From NCBI RefSeq assembly GCF_000949425.1, contig NZ_CP010976.1, positions 4,712,001-4,776,000 of the forward strand: a stretch of DNA of 64,000 nucleotides, given 5' to 3'. The translations under genes were made by a program, and so were the position numbers. Positions 37,991 to 60,129 of this stretch are shown in pieces. How positions within the stretch are numbered: the first letter of the stretch is position 1; each line of letters begins with the position of its first letter. This stretch comes from Paenibacillus sp. IHBB 10380. GTDB lineage: Bacteria > Bacillota > Bacilli > Paenibacillales > Paenibacillaceae. The notes under the pieces were generated by a model. That model was not told the DNA's origin. It did not search any database and saw nothing but the letters and a program-made list of their open reading frames with translations.

Positions 37991-38860
37991 TCACTTGGAC
38001 ACAGTCACAATGACGCCATCTATGTTGTTTCCTGATGTCTCATAGTGATGATGCACGGGGATTTCAAGGGTCATATTGTGAGAAATAGGATGATACATAA
38101 CATCATATGTTGTGCCATTAACTACTGTTGAAGTGCTCTTGTGTTCTTTCAAGAAATCTAAATATTGTTCCAACACCAAATTATTTTCCTTCATAATGGC
38201 ACTGTGAGGCAGACCGACATAGCGAAAATGCCAAGGCTCATATTGAATACCTGTAATAGCGGTTTTGTCCTTGGGATACCGTAAAATAAAGCCGTACCTC
38301 CAAGCATTCTTTTGCAACCATTCTCCTTCAGGTGCTTTACTCATCTCCATTTGCGTAGATCCAATATCAAGGGATAATCCTAAATTGTGTTCGCTATAAC
38401 CCGCTGGCAAAGCATAATCAGATCCCTTTTCTTGATAAAGGCTTCTTTGCTCTTCAAAATCTCGATAACCACTGCTAATCAAAAAATGTTGAATTCCATC
38501 CTTTTCAGCAGCCTCTATCATCTTCAGAAACTTCTGCGCCACACGCTCTGACAACTGAATATGAGTATCTAACAGTCCATAACCTTGTAACAACTCTTTG
38601 TGCTCAAATAAATTAACCACATCCGATTGCACACTGTCTTGGTGAACAGGATACTCCTTGTTAACCAAGAGTAAATTCCCTTGGTACACCTGATCTTGAG
38701 TAATGTTTATCGTCTGGGCACTTGTAAGAGTACCTCTCTGAATATCATGATCTTCCTTAGCAATGTCTTTATGGGTCTGTTGAACGGTTGGTGTTATATT
38801 CATGGCTTTAAGCCCTAGTAACAACAATATAATAATCACAAAAAAGCCCCACTTCTTCAT
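37991..38860 (-). CDS. VanY-type D-alanyl-D-alanine carboxypeptidase
   Basis: The 289-residue protein has an N-terminal signal anchor (KKWGFFVIIILLLLGLKAM) and a peptidase M15B domain. Zinc ligands and catalytic residues are in SEHNLGLSLDIG (His158, Asp165) and YEPWHFRYVG (Glu208, His211); SSGYRDFEEQ precedes them. It trims the terminal D-Ala of peptidoglycan stem peptides outside the membrane, as VanYB does in glycopeptide resistance. No vanHAX-like or vanRS genes accompany it, so a housekeeping wall-editing role is more likely than resistance. Only 140 bases separate its stop from the orphan BlaI gene on the same strand. Confidence 0.92.
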   Translation of the reverse strand: MKKWGFFVIIILLLLGLKAMNITPTVQQTHKDIAKEDHDIQRGTLTSAQTINITQDQVYQGNLLLVNKEYPVHQDSVQSDVVNLFEHKELLQGYGLLDTHIQLSERVAQKFLKMIEAAEKDGIQHFLISSGYRDFEEQRSLYQEKGSDYALPAGYSEHNLGLSLDIGSTQMEMSKAPEGEWLQKNAWRYGFILRYPKDKTAITGIQYEPWHFRYVGLPHSAIMKENNLVLEQYLDFLKEHKSTSTVVNGTTYDVMYHPISHNMTLEIPVHHHYETSGNNIDGVIVTVSK

Positions 38861-39006
38861 TTGCAGTTTCCTCCTCCATCCTTCATGTATCTAGAATAGA
38901 GAAAACTGTTTAAACAAAAAGTAGGACAATTATAAAGTTTTTCTTAAATCATGAACTCTCAACAGAATAAATATGTATCTTTCGATCCGATCCCATGATC
39001 GTGTCC

Positions 39007-39933
39007 TTACAGCATATCCCCTAATATTCTGGCCTGTTTATCAAGTAGACCTGCAGCTTGACCGATGCCCGTAAATTCATCAACCGCTTGTTGGGTAAGG
39101 CGTTGGCTGTCAGTAATGACCGTTTGCGAGCGTTTTGTACCGTTTGCGATCTCTGCCACCTGTTCAGCGATACCCTCCAAATTAGAATTCACTTCCTTAG
39201 TCGCTTCCTCCGCTTGCTGAGCCAATTTGCGAACCTCAGTTGCCACCACGTTAAAGCCACGCCCATGTTCTCCTGCGTGCGCTGCTTCAATCGCAGCATT
39301 CAAAGCCAGCAAATGGGTCTGCGAGGCAACATCACGGATGGTCTTCATGCTATCTCGAACAGAATCGGACTTTTGTTCTAATAGTTGGAGTATTTCCATG
39401 TTGTTATTGGATTCCTTAACGACCCGTTCGATGGCTGATGCAATTTGATGACTACTTGAAACGCCTTCCTCTGCACGTTTTAGGAGATCCTCAGCCATGT
39501 GTTGCATATCATTTGTAACTTGAGTTGTGGCATTCTCCCGAGACGTGATATCCGTTGCCACTTTAATTACAGCTTGCACATGACCATCTGTATCATAAAC
39601 GGGGGTATATGTCGCCTCAAACCATAGGAGACGTCGATTCTTTGTAACCCGTAATATTTTTTCTTGGAAAGGACGTCCGCTTTTTAAATCACTCCAAAGC
39701 TTCGTATATTCAGAACTGTTCACAAATTCTGGTGTACAGAACTGTCGATGCATCAATCCTGGCATTTCGGATGCTTCATAGTCCATTGCCCGTGCAAAGT
39801 TATCGTTTGCCCATAACACTTTCCCTTCAGTATTGAATTCGATCATGGCCAAGGAATTCTCAATAGCTGCAAGGACCGCGCTCTGTTCCAATACTTGGGT
39901 GCTAGAATACAAATTATTACTTAGACTACTCAT
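39007..39933 (-). CDS. Soluble PAS-domain methyl-accepting chemotaxis protein
   Basis: The 308-residue protein lacks membrane segments. Residues 18-130 form a PAS domain ([25 protein letters not shown]..., ending [11 protein letters not shown]). Residues 140-308 are a short MCP signalling coiled coil with the conserved hairpin tip [38 protein letters not shown]. It resembles BdlA-like cytoplasmic receptors that read redox, oxygen or a bound cofactor and pass the signal to CheA. It is divergent from a CarH-like B12 photoreceptor gene, and direct repeats resembling a CarH operator overlap its likely promoter. Confidence 0.9.
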
Positions 39934-39979
39934 GTTGCGCCCCCTATATTTATATCATTCCGTATAACAATTAATGTAA

Positions 39980-40012
39980 ACTACACAGAGACTATACACA
40001 AACTATACAACT
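39980..40012. promoter_or_regulatory. Three 11-bp direct repeats, putative CarH-type operator
   Basis: ACTACACAGAG (39980), ACTATACACAA (39991) and ACTATACAACT (40002) are successive units with exactly 11-bp spacing sharing ACTAyACA. CarH tetramers are known to bind tandem 11-bp direct repeats over a promoter. The block lies in the 183-bp gap between the soluble chemoreceptor and the CarH-like gene. Its left edge overlaps a TTTACA that could be the chemoreceptor -35 on the minus strand. Confidence 0.6.
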
Positions 40013-40116
40013 TATGCAACAATATTTTTTATAAGTTTCAAATTTGAAGAAAAATCCTTCTCAACCTAGTCATTGTGTCTAATTTATGTATAATTAAACT
40101 GAGGTGGGTAACATAT

Positions 40117-41010
40117 ATGTATGGTATTAAAAAAGTTTCTGAATTGCTAGGTATCCCCACTGTGACTATACGGGCTTGGGAGAATAGGTACCAGATCATA
40201 AAACCGATGCGCAGTCATGGTGGACATCGTTTATATAGCCAAGCTGATATTGACACCCTTAAATGGATAAAGAATCAAATGGACGAGCAAAACATGAAAG
40301 TTAGCGAAGCGGTGTGGTTGCTGAAACAAAAAAACTTTGAGGGTCTAATCGAGAAAGCCCCCGAACCTTATGCCAGTAAAATTTACGATGATCTCATCCA
40401 AAAACTGTACCAAGATTTAATTGATTTAAATACAATCCAAGCACACGAAACCATTGATTTAGCGTTTACGTTGTATCACTATGACGATGTATTCCACAAC
40501 TTACTTGTTCCAGTGCTCTACAGAATGGGTGCAGAATGGGAAAGTGGGCTTATAACGGCTGCTGAAGAGCACTTCTCTTCCCAATTAATTATGCAAAGAT
40601 TTACCCAGTTTTTTAGAATCCTTCCTGTTCATCATCATCTTCCGAAAGTTTTGGCACTGTGTCCTGAGGGAGAACAACATCACATGGAACTGATGCTCTT
40701 TAGTTTATTTTTACGAAAAAAAGGGCTAGATGTCATTTACTTAGGCCCAAATACACCATTGAGCGAATTAACTATATTGCTTGAGAGGAAGAATGTATCG
40801 GTGGTGGCCATTTCAATTACCGATCCCATCCATATCGAAAGGCTGGAGGATTCGATCAAGGTATGTCACGGACAATTTCCTGATTTAAAATTTGTGCTTG
40901 GTGGAATGGGCTTTAAAGATTCCATAACACCTATATCCACGTATGTCATACCTAATGATCAGACAAGCTGGGAACAATGGTACCATTCGCAAATTGAATC
41001 CAGACTGTAA
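40117..41010 (+). CDS. MerR-family B12-dependent photoreceptor regulator (CarH/LitR-like)
   Basis: The 297-residue protein has a MerR winged helix (2-70: YGIKKVSELLGIPTVTIRAW, HGGHRLYS), a helical B12-binding-2 domain, and a C-terminal Rossmann B12-binding domain. The W-x9-EH motif diagnostic of adenosylcobalamin photoreceptors is intact (Trp141, Glu151-His152 in WESGLITAAEEH). The lower axial histidine sits in GEQHHMEL (His188), followed by RKKGLDVIYLGPNTPLSEL. It should bind DNA as a dark tetramer and release it when light breaks the Co-C bond. GAGGTG and ATG 40117 give the correct N-terminus. No carotenoid or photolyase genes are nearby. Confidence 0.9.
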   Translation: MYGIKKVSELLGIPTVTIRAWENRYQIIKPMRSHGGHRLYSQADIDTLKWIKNQMDEQNMKVSEAVWLLKQKNFEGLIEKAPEPYASKIYDDLIQKLYQDLIDLNTIQAHETIDLAFTLYHYDDVFHNLLVPVLYRMGAEWESGLITAAEEHFSSQLIMQRFTQFFRILPVHHHLPKVLALCPEGEQHHMELMLFSLFLRKKGLDVIYLGPNTPLSELTILLERKNVSVVAISITDPIHIERLEDSIKVCHGQFPDLKFVLGGMGFKDSITPISTYVIPNDQTSWEQWYHSQIESRL

Positions 41011-41135
41011 AACTCTCCTGATTCTATATTCAGACAGGACAAGATAGACAGATTAAGAACCGGAACCTAGTAAATAATAGTTTCTCATTCATGGGTTGTT
41101 GCTAGTTCCATTTCAATTCGTAGGTAAGTAAATCG

Positions 41136-41170
41136 CAGAGTTCTTGGTTTATACCAAGAACTCTGTTTTT
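41136..41170 (+). terminator. Terminator after CarH-like gene
   Basis: CAGAGTTCTTGGT (41136-41148) and ACCAAGAACTCTG (41153-41165) are perfectly complementary around TTAT and followed by TTTTTTC. Confidence 0.95.
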
Positions 41171-41389
41171 TCTGGAATTCACCAGTAAATTTAATTTTGG
41201 ATAATTGCTTTCGAATATGACCAAAAGGTTAAGACAAATAAACTTTTTCCACGTTTATGCAACAATACTGTAACCGCGTTTGTAAACAAATCTATTTTTC
41301 ACTATATATAATGTAGTAGTAGGTAATTTCTAGAAAGATATCACATGACAAACAAATATAATCATGTATTAGGGAGGAGAAATTCAATA

Positions 41390-42499
41390 ATGAATAAAGG
41401 TATGCAATGGAGCGCAGCCCTATTGGCTGCTGGTATACTACTTGGGGGTTCGGGCTTAACAGGAGGGACTTCGGCATATGCCGATACTACAACTACAAAC
41501 GTTATGAAACAGAGCGTGCAACAGCCAGCTGTTGTGCTTAAATATAAGGGGGAAACGTTACCACAGCAGGGAAAAATCGTGAATGGAAACACGATGATAC
41601 CTGTAACAGTTCTACGTGATGCCCTTGGGCTTCCTTTGAGCTATACACCAAGCACAAAGACTTATAGTGTAGGTAGTGGCTCTATGAAGCTTAATCTCGA
41701 AACTTCCCAATATGGCGTTAGCACAAACCTGAACGGTTACTATATTTACAGCAATAGTAGCAAATATGAAGCGAAAAATTTGGACGGACACTTGTATGTA
41801 CCTTTCAAATTGTTGAATGATTACTTAGGCTATCAGGGTGCGTACAGTCCTTCCCTGAAATCGCTCGAAATCAGCAAACGGGTGATGAACGATATTAGCA
41901 TCTCGTCCGTCACATTGAACAAAACTAATAAGAATGCAAGTATCCAGATTCAATATCCACAAATCAGCGGATTGACAGACAAAGCACAGCAGGCGATGAA
42001 TGCCGTGTTCAAGAAAAAATCCGAGGAATTCGCAACCGAGAGTGAAAAGCAGTCCAAAATTAGAGACGGCTCCGTGGAGAAGCACAAGTATGATTTCAGC
42101 CAAGACTTTGTAGTGACCTTCAACCGTGAAGGTGTGCTCAGTGTTGTAATCGATCAAAGTTCTTATACAGGCGGAGCCCATGGTAGCACAGCTCGCGAAG
42201 GACTTACTTTCTCATTGAAGAGTGGAAAGCAACTGGAACTGGGCGACCTACTGAAGGCGACTCCGAACTACAAGCAAAAACTGGGCAATATGCTGAAGGA
42301 AAGAACAAAAAAGGAATCCTTCGCAGACGTATCCGCCGGATTGAACACCAAGCCTGACTTCTACGTCAAAGAAGGTGGCATTGCAATCTTTTACCAGCAG
42401 TACGAGATTGCACCTTATGCAGCCGGATTGCCTACTTTCGAATTTAACTTTAGCGAATTACTACCGAAGGGCATAAATCCTTTCTCGTCTATCAAGTAA
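41390..42499 (+). CDS. Secreted protein: copper-amine-oxidase-N-type domain plus DUF4163/DUF3298 (PdaC/RsiV-like)
   Basis: The 369-residue protein has a signal peptide (MNKGMQWSAALLAAGILL...SAYA). Residues about 45-160 are a copper_amine_oxidN1-like beta domain (GNTMIPVTVLRDALGLPLSY, GHLYVPFKLLNDYLGYQ). Residues about 170-365 match the DUF4163-DUF3298 pair (YTGGAHGSTAREGLTFSLKSGKQLELGDLL), found in the extracellular part of RsiV and the N-terminal part of PdaC, where it has lysozyme/peptidoglycan-binding roles. There is no deacetylase domain or membrane anchor. GGGAGGAG sets the ATG at 41390. A wall-binding role is inferred. Confidence 0.85.
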   Translation: MNKGMQWSAALLAAGILLGGSGLTGGTSAYADTTTTNVMKQSVQQPAVVLKYKGETLPQQGKIVNGNTMIPVTVLRDALGLPLSYTPSTKTYSVGSGSMKLNLETSQYGVSTNLNGYYIYSNSSKYEAKNLDGHLYVPFKLLNDYLGYQGAYSPSLKSLEISKRVMNDISISSVTLNKTNKNASIQIQYPQISGLTDKAQQAMNAVFKKKSEEFATESEKQSKIRDGSVEKHKYDFSQDFVVTFNREGVLSVVIDQSSYTGGAHGSTAREGLTFSLKSGKQLELGDLLKATPNYKQKLGNMLKERTKKESFADVSAGLNTKPDFYVKEGGIAIFYQQYEIAPYAAGLPTFEFNFSELLPKGINPFSSIK

Positions 42500-58455: not shown

Positions 58456-60129
58456 TTAAATCGTAAAGATCCCAACTTCACGCTTCAATAATACAGATAA
58501 TTCACTCAACTCTCTCAGTTTGGTTGTCATTTCTTCGACTGTCGCGAGTTGTTGTTCCGTGGAAGCTGCCACTTCCTGTGATGCTGATGCCGACTCATCA
58601 ATGAGCTTCGAAGATTGCATCAGAGCTTCCAATGATTGATGTGACATTGTCGACAGTTCGCCGAATATGTGCTGAATTCGTAGCGTGCTTTCGGCCGTTA
58701 GGTCAACCTTATGAACGATCATTTCAAGTGATTCTTGGCCCTGTATCACTAAATCGTTCTGTACGATGACCACTCGCTGACTCGCTTCCATTGTCTTAAC
58801 AGCTGCATTCGTTTCCACTTGAATCCTGCGAATAAGCTCCGTAATCTGCTCTGCCGCTCTTCCTGAGCCTTCAGCAAGCTTACGGATCTCTCCTGCAACT
58901 ACAGCAAAACCTTTCCCTTGTTCTCCAGCGCGAGCCGCTTCAATAGCAGCATTAAGAGCGAGTAAATTGGTCTGACTGGCTAATTCGGAAATCACGGTAA
59001 TAATCTCACCGATTTCGTTGGATCGACTGTTCAGCTTTACAATGGTTTCTGTTGAGCGTTGGATTGAGCTAACCATATCTTCTAAATTATCAACAGATGC
59101 TCTATTCGCACTCTGGCCAGTTTGTACAGCTTCTATTAAAAGATGGGAATCATGAACCGTTTTTACCGTTTCCAGCTTGATTTCTTCGGAGATCTCCCCC
59201 GTTCGTTCCATCATCGTGAGTACTTGCCGCACATGTTCCGCTTGCTGTGTCGAACGATCAGCCATATCAGCGATAATCGTTGTTATCTGCTTCGATGATT
59301 CATTCGTCTGCACTGCTGCAATTTGCAGCATACCGGCATTCTCATTCAAATGGTTAGCTTCAATAGTGACATTACCTACAATCGCCCGTAAGTTGTCCAG
59401 AAATTGATTAATTGAATAAGCTAACAATCCAATTTCATCATTCCGCTTCATGTCCAGCTTCTGCGTCAAATCACCCCCATGTTCAACGAGTCCCGCAACA
59501 TGCTTGTTTATCATGCGCAGCGGTCGAACAACACTCCGAGTTAATATGATAAAGAGCAGGACAATAAATATAACCATCGCGATGATAAAACCGCCTATAA
59601 TTAAATAAAGATTTTCCATCATGGGATCATTAACCTGTTTTAAAGGCATGGCCAACACTAACTTATAACCTGTATCACCAATCATGGTGAAAGCGTACAC
59701 GCTCTCCGAGTCCCACATGCTATTCGTTCCCGAAGTTTGCGCTATCACTTGACCCACTTTTTGCATCTGTGTGTCCGAATCTCCGATCATGGCTTTACCT
59801 AAGACGAACTTAGGGTTCTCACTTGCAGCGTATCGACCTTCTTTATCTACTATAAAATAATATTCATCCCCACTTTTTTTCATTTTTTCCAATACCTCAT
59901 GGAATTCTTTACTCTCCAGTCCTTGTTTCTTATCACTGCTATTCAGTAATAGCATGTTTAGTTTTACGGAAGTAAGCTCCACCTTATAGTTAAGCTTTTG
60001 TTCAACTTCACTACTGATAATTTCGCTAAAGTTAGAAAATGTAAATTTAAATAGACCTGCAAAAATAACCACCATATACACTACAGCAACGGACATAACG
60101 ATAGTTCGAACTGTCTTTTTCTTTTTCAT
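58456..60129 (-). CDS. Transmembrane methyl-accepting chemotaxis protein (Cache-like sensor, HAMP)
   Basis: The 557-residue protein has a first membrane span at 10-32 and an outside sensor of about 130 residues with a Cache-like core ([48 protein letters not shown]). The second span is at about 172-197 ([24 protein letters not shown]), then a HAMP domain ([14 protein letters not shown]). The signalling domain has the tip [38 protein letters not shown]. It senses a small ligand, probably an organic acid or amino acid, and signals to CheA. GGAAGG precedes the ATG. Confidence 0.94.

Follow-up and report, generated by a model that had tools for sequence, protein, structure and literature searches.

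The 64-kb window analyzed here, meaning the whole stretch of DNA from the soil bacterium Paenibacillus sp. IHBB 10380, contains a carH-like regulator gene that diverges from a gene for a soluble PAS chemoreceptor (MCP). Candidate CarH boxes with 11-bp spacing lie between the two genes (Table 1).

Table 1. Features of the carH-like gene, the divergent chemoreceptor gene and the region between them (positions in the window).
Feature	Position	Strand	Remarks
Soluble PAS chemoreceptor (MCP), 308 aa	39007..39933	-	Single PAS then MCP signalling domain; PF00015 1.9e-26; PAS_4, PAS_9, PAS_3
Remnant TATACG, one mismatch	39961..39966	-	Site of the second inverted-arm box in relatives; by eye
Candidate CarH box 1, TACACA	39982..39987	+	Near predicted MCP transcription start
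Predicted MCP -10, TATAGT	39991..39996	-	Same place in relatives
Candidate CarH box 2, TATACA	39993..39998	+	Overlaps predicted MCP -10
Candidate CarH box 3, TATACA	40004..40009	+	Within spacer of predicted MCP promoter
Predicted MCP -35, TTGCAT	40014..40019	-	17 bp from -10; TTGC-type element in 19/27 linked loci
Candidate CarH box TAGACA	40076..40081	-	Upstream of carH -10
Candidate CarH box TATACA	40087..40092	-	Overlaps carH -10; 11 bp from TAGACA box
carH -10, TATAAT preceded by TATG	40089..40094	+	Scan lists TAGTCA-16-TATAAT
carH-like gene, 297 aa	40117..41010	+	Start ATG; MerR HTH, four-helix B12-binding_2, Rossmann B12-binding (Pfam)
Terminator-like two-way hairpin after carH	41135..41166	.	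2 such sites in 38800-41400, 1.7 expected in shuffles

The combination of MerR, B12-binding_2 and B12-binding domains in the regulator is that of CarH (class I LitR). Thermus thermophilus CarH (3whp/5c8d) provides its top PDB matches (E about 2e-29), and TransRegCarH is its best-scoring NCBIfam family, with 142.6 bits, below the 400-bit equivalog cut-off. In the predicted structure (mean pLDDT 88), the HTH is followed by a helix bundle and an alpha/beta domain. The W-x9-EH and GEQHH motifs, on which the original prediction of an adenosylcobalamin (AdoCbl) light sensor was built, are present at residues 141-152 and 185-189. The window protein and all 204 aligned relatives (192 distinct) retain both W-x9-EH and the axial His. 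The ExHxxG cobalamin motif reads ExHxxE in the window protein, in a block of lower model confidence (residues 181-190, pLDDT 77), and has Gly in every one of the same 204 relatives. Replacement of this Gly by Glu could impair cobalamin binding, and we regard the regulator as a member of the CarH clade whose motif is altered rather than as a proven AdoCbl binder. Because the substitution is unique and falls in the cobalamin motif, the light response of the window protein is less certain than that of its relatives. The protein also departs from T. thermophilus CarH at the residue after the Trp, which is His132 in T. thermophilus and Glu in the window CarH and 202 of the 204 relatives. A study of the role of His132 in light release describes the H132A variant exposed to light as remaining mostly tetrameric, contradicting an earlier report (PMC10442372). 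Whether Bacilli-type CarH lets go of DNA in light like the Thermus protein depends on work with Bacillus megaterium, as summarized elsewhere (PMC9304148, PMC8156234).

Our search of the window genome found no second CarH, the sole other match being 51 residues long (E 9.6e-4). Matches to PduO-type adenosyltransferases are present in this genome. The two-way terminator-like hairpin that follows carH suggests that the gene is probably transcribed on its own.

The divergent gene encodes a chemoreceptor with the conserved hairpin tip in its MCP signalling domain, and its close relatives have similar lengths and domains. Aer-type soluble PAS chemoreceptors likewise join PAS to an MCP signalling domain, but the window MCP differs from them in having a single PAS domain, no HAMP match in the domain search and no membrane segment by eye. 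BdlA is also a soluble PAS chemoreceptor. Potential CheA partners are encoded in the genome, as indicated by two H-kinase_dim (CheA-type dimerisation) matches above cut-off. The PAS part of the receptor matches solved PAS/LOV domains of sensor kinases, Aer, DosP and phototropin; our guess is that it responds to a redox or oxygen signal. A VanY-type D,D-carboxypeptidase gene (37991-38860, minus strand; 443.5 bits compared to the 425-bit vanY_AFMPt cut-off of NCBIfam) lies 146 bp downstream of the receptor gene on the same strand, and the terminator scan lists none between them. The window also contains a second chemoreceptor-like gene (58456-60129, minus strand), whose product is apparently membrane-bound (by eye).

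The original prediction named three repeats spaced exactly 11 bp apart. These are confirmed as ACTACACA at 39980 and ACTATACA at 39991 and again at 40002, and Tandem Repeats Finder independently calls the array (39978-40009, period 11, 2.9 copies, unit AAACTATACAC). The window contains a single (TnnACA)x3 pattern with 11-bp spacing, compared to a mean of 0.01 over 100 shuffles (one shuffle of the 100 had one), and a single CTATACA-N4-CTATACA, which never appears in the shuffles. Across the whole 5.79-Mb genome, (TnnACA)x3 was found three times, compared to once for a reversed-pattern control. One of the two other matches falls within a long open frame. The second (L089:1501-1528) consists of an 11-bp tandem, TATACA, TAAACA, TAAACA, located between histidine-kinase-type and GGDEF-type frames; it is a possible second CarH site, but its boxes are mostly TAAACA, and it reads as a small tandem duplication or as chance.

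As originally proposed, the repeats overlap the likely promoter of the receptor gene, with box 2 on its predicted -10 element. The window has a tandem 11-bp candidate operator over a predicted promoter, as in known CarH systems. The standard promoter scan does not list it because the -35 element matches TTGACA at three of six positions and the scan needs four. A looser rule for receptors (TTG, 16-18, TAnAnT) yields a receptor promoter in all 27 of the linked loci described below. A 17-bp spacer fits repression better than MerR-type activation. On the carH side, the TATAAT at 40089 is present as described, but it is not merely downstream of the repeats: the carH -10 has its own pair of boxes, which the original prediction missed. 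Two-box matches in the 64 kb number four on the plus strand and two on the minus strand, array included, and the carH-promoter pair alone is within chance. Its weight comes from relatives and not from the window count. Among 29 members of the CarH clade, TATAAT lies 24-32 bp ahead of the start codon in 25, and a strict box pair is found at the carH promoter in 14.

To place the gene pair in its wider context, we collected 27 loci with a divergent carH and PAS receptor, window included, from Paenibacillaceae and one other family (hereafter, linked loci); the family receptor search used the PAS part of the MCP as query. Of the 100 genomes of the genus, that of the window included, 44 besides the latter encode a CarH that matches at E 1e-30 or better and is 38-44% identical to the window protein, and no homologous receptor lies within 1.5 kb of CarH at the 29 of these 44 loci that were examined. 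Among the 394 genomes of the family, by contrast, a homologous PAS receptor faces most of the CarH homologues from outside the genus, which are about 45-61% identical. The same holds for the CarH of Paenibacillus sp. 1_12, P. rigui and P. radicis and of one genome of another family (G521). No PAS receptor faces CarH within 1.5 kb at L042, L044 and L050. A quick, midpoint-rooted tree, for which 86 loci were thinned to 52 CarH proteins and which leaves out linked loci G121, G122:C8 and G126, groups all 24 of its MCP-linked proteins in one clade of 29 (SH-aLRT 99). Linkage to the receptor requires five changes on this tree, compared to 17.4 in shuffles, and the CarH proteins of the genus mates form a clade separate from that of the window. 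The window clade also includes CarH proteins from another family with boxes upstream (L063 and L065), the second of which faces a DUF378 gene.

Conservation of the repeats in relatives, which had been set as a test of the idea, was borne out. Proximal 11-bp box pairs, meaning those no more than 110 bp ahead of the receptor gene's start, are present in 25 of the 27 linked loci, compared to 0.27 expected from shuffles; the strict pair is missing in G351 and G110, which have near-matches by eye. A paired box covers the predicted receptor -10 in 19/27 loci and any box does so in 25/27, leaving eight with no paired box there. The consensus of 73 boxes is AAYTATACAAA, in which T and ACA are fixed by the search rule, and resembles the published CarH box nAnnTnnACAn (PMC8156234). 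Two strict arms in inverted orientation occur in 10 linked loci, one arm in 15 and none in two. In all ten two-arm loci, five of which fall in one close receptor group, the arms are separated by 21 or 22 bp. The window, like Paenibacillus sp. 1_12, instead has a row of three boxes together with what appears by eye to be a worn second arm.

The same boxes are found at carotenoid-type genes. We read eight CarH loci, seven of the genus (L006, L012, L024, L030, L007, L014, L005) and one of another (L055), in which the gene after CarH is of carotenoid type, crtI-like or, in L005, idi-like (by eye). Strict boxes precede the carotenoid-type gene in six of the eight (six of the seven from the genus) and precede carH in five, all from the genus, with none in L055 or L005. 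In L042, whose CarH groups in the same clade as that of the window, the facing gene is of the crtI family. Across 23 module-bearing genomes, the strict two-box pattern gave 34 matches in 17 genomes, compared to five control matches. Among 13 pattern loci that we read, three are ahead of type 2 IPP isomerase genes and one is ahead of a crtI-family gene, both gene types being confirmed by NCBIfam. L196 has a second CarH on one side and a phytoene-synthase-type frame (SQS_PSY, below NCBIfam CrtB cut-offs) on the other, and L183 is ahead of a second CarH. The remaining seven, of which two are located between dnaA and dnaN, show no connection with light and may be chance matches. Because boxes mark carotenoid-type genes beside CarH in relatives, the motif appears to behave as a CarH operator in the family. 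In the window genome we found no carotenoid operon; a frame of 271 aa gives the sole SQS_PSY match, and the 1.5 kb on either side of it contain no crt gene.

Receptors that are not adjacent to carH provide a further comparison. This unlinked set comprises 60 distinct receptors, namely matches listed to about E 1e-40 plus 12 weaker ones picked by hand, with G176 counted once. When carH was scored at E 1e-60, proximal pairs were present at 5/13 unlinked receptors in carH genomes compared to 6/47 in others (Fisher p 0.049). Most of the box-bearing genomes formerly scored as lacking carH have a weaker CarH-like class with W-x9-EH, found at E 1e-15. Counting this class, which was done post hoc after the boxes were seen, gives 10/22 compared to 1/38 receptors (p 7e-5), and a span of 300 bp, also post hoc and with counts entered by hand, gives 11/22 compared to 2/38 (p 1e-4). 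On the receptor tree, eight independent pairs give an average of 1.7 for and 0 against the association between carH and boxes, which is not significant. Given relatedness and the definition of carH, boxes at unlinked receptors are weakly associated with the presence of carH; this association is consistent with CarH control of receptors and is not proof of it. The nearest unlinked receptor, G005:C7, has a four-box array and no promoter by the loose rule. The weaker CarH-like proteins detected at E 1e-15 form a second MerR-B12 class; in eight genomes (L163-L170) its members have W-x9-EH and share about 25-29% identity with the window CarH.

We interpret the locus as a CarH-based light switch on a chemoreceptor gene, to which we assign a probability of roughly 70%. 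The sequences themselves establish the genes, the boxes, the overlap of these with predicted promoters, and conservation. AdoCbl-loaded CarH would repress both promoters in the dark. At the receptor promoter, TTGCAT-N17-TATAGT, it would occupy the 11-bp boxes found in the spacer, on the -10 and around the start, and so block RNA polymerase; its presence on the second box pair at the carH -10 would lead to autorepression. Light would cleave the Co-C bond, CarH would leave the DNA, and both genes would be expressed. Lit cells would thereby acquire a PAS receptor that is located in the cytoplasm and signals through the ordinary CheA pathway. The CarH-controlled receptor gene put forward in the original prediction is in this respect supported by the comparison with relatives.

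Three other explanations deserve consideration. The repeats could serve only the autoregulation of carH, and would then overlap the receptor promoter simply because the two divergent genes lie so close together. CarH proteins do repress their own genes. However, the carH -10 has separate boxes, the receptor-side boxes fall on the predicted receptor -10 in 19 of the 27 linked loci, and the unlinked receptors G005:C7, G076, G356 and G357 have boxes with no adjacent carH, and we find autoregulation alone quite improbable. The boxes could also be chance or generic promoter sequence, given that TGTATAAT resembles an extended -10 and that a single box does fall on a -10. Such an origin is very hard to reconcile with the exact 11-bp phasing, the distance of 21-22 bp between inverted arms in 10/10 loci, the excess of observed over expected pairs in the linked set and the presence of proximal pairs at only 1/38 receptors in genomes without carH at E 1e-15, and we give it almost no weight.

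The remaining explanation accepts the module for the family but not for this strain. Its CarH may sense light poorly if cobalamin is bound less well with Glu in place of Gly in ExHxxG, leaving the receptor constitutive or under another signal. The change is found in 0/204 relatives and affects the motif that holds the axial His, and the genome has no carotenoid operon that we could find. On the other hand, the carH frame is otherwise intact, the boxes and receptor are well kept, and W-x9-EH and the axial His are retained. We consider a loss of light sensing unlikely, even for this strain.

The light switch that we favor shares much with the CarH systems of T. thermophilus and B. megaterium, including domain order, W-x9-EH, the axial His, tandem 11-bp boxes over promoter elements and, in part of the window clade, a box pair at the gene's own promoter. 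Its proposed target is different, being a chemoreceptor gene rather than carotenoid genes, and ten relatives of the window have two inverted box pairs rather than only a tandem row. The carH-crtI and carH-idi loci of the genus also have CarH of a separate clade. Redox-stress genes are among the known CarH targets. In the literature covered, which includes few subscription papers, we found no link between CarH or adenosylcobalamin and chemoreceptors or chemotaxis. CarH itself is known; as far as our searches of that literature show, the chemoreceptor target and the inverted-pair operator are unreported.

More broadly, and tentatively, we speculate that light, acting via coenzyme B12 and a module widespread in Bacilli, determines how much of one chemoreceptor a cell contains. 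Light would then alter what a swimming cell responds to and would not itself be the tactic signal. The same proposal includes a new form of CarH operator, in which two tandem box pairs face each other 21-22 bp apart. If true, behavior would join the known CarH targets, and B12 status and light would be tied to chemotaxis in non-phototrophic bacteria. The locus could also offer optogenetics a natural receptor under green-light control and a new operator layout. Why a heterotroph would alter its receptor set in light becomes a testable question. As a separate observation, in P. rigui a gene for a CheY-like receiver follows carH on the opposite strand (L061:4998-5357).
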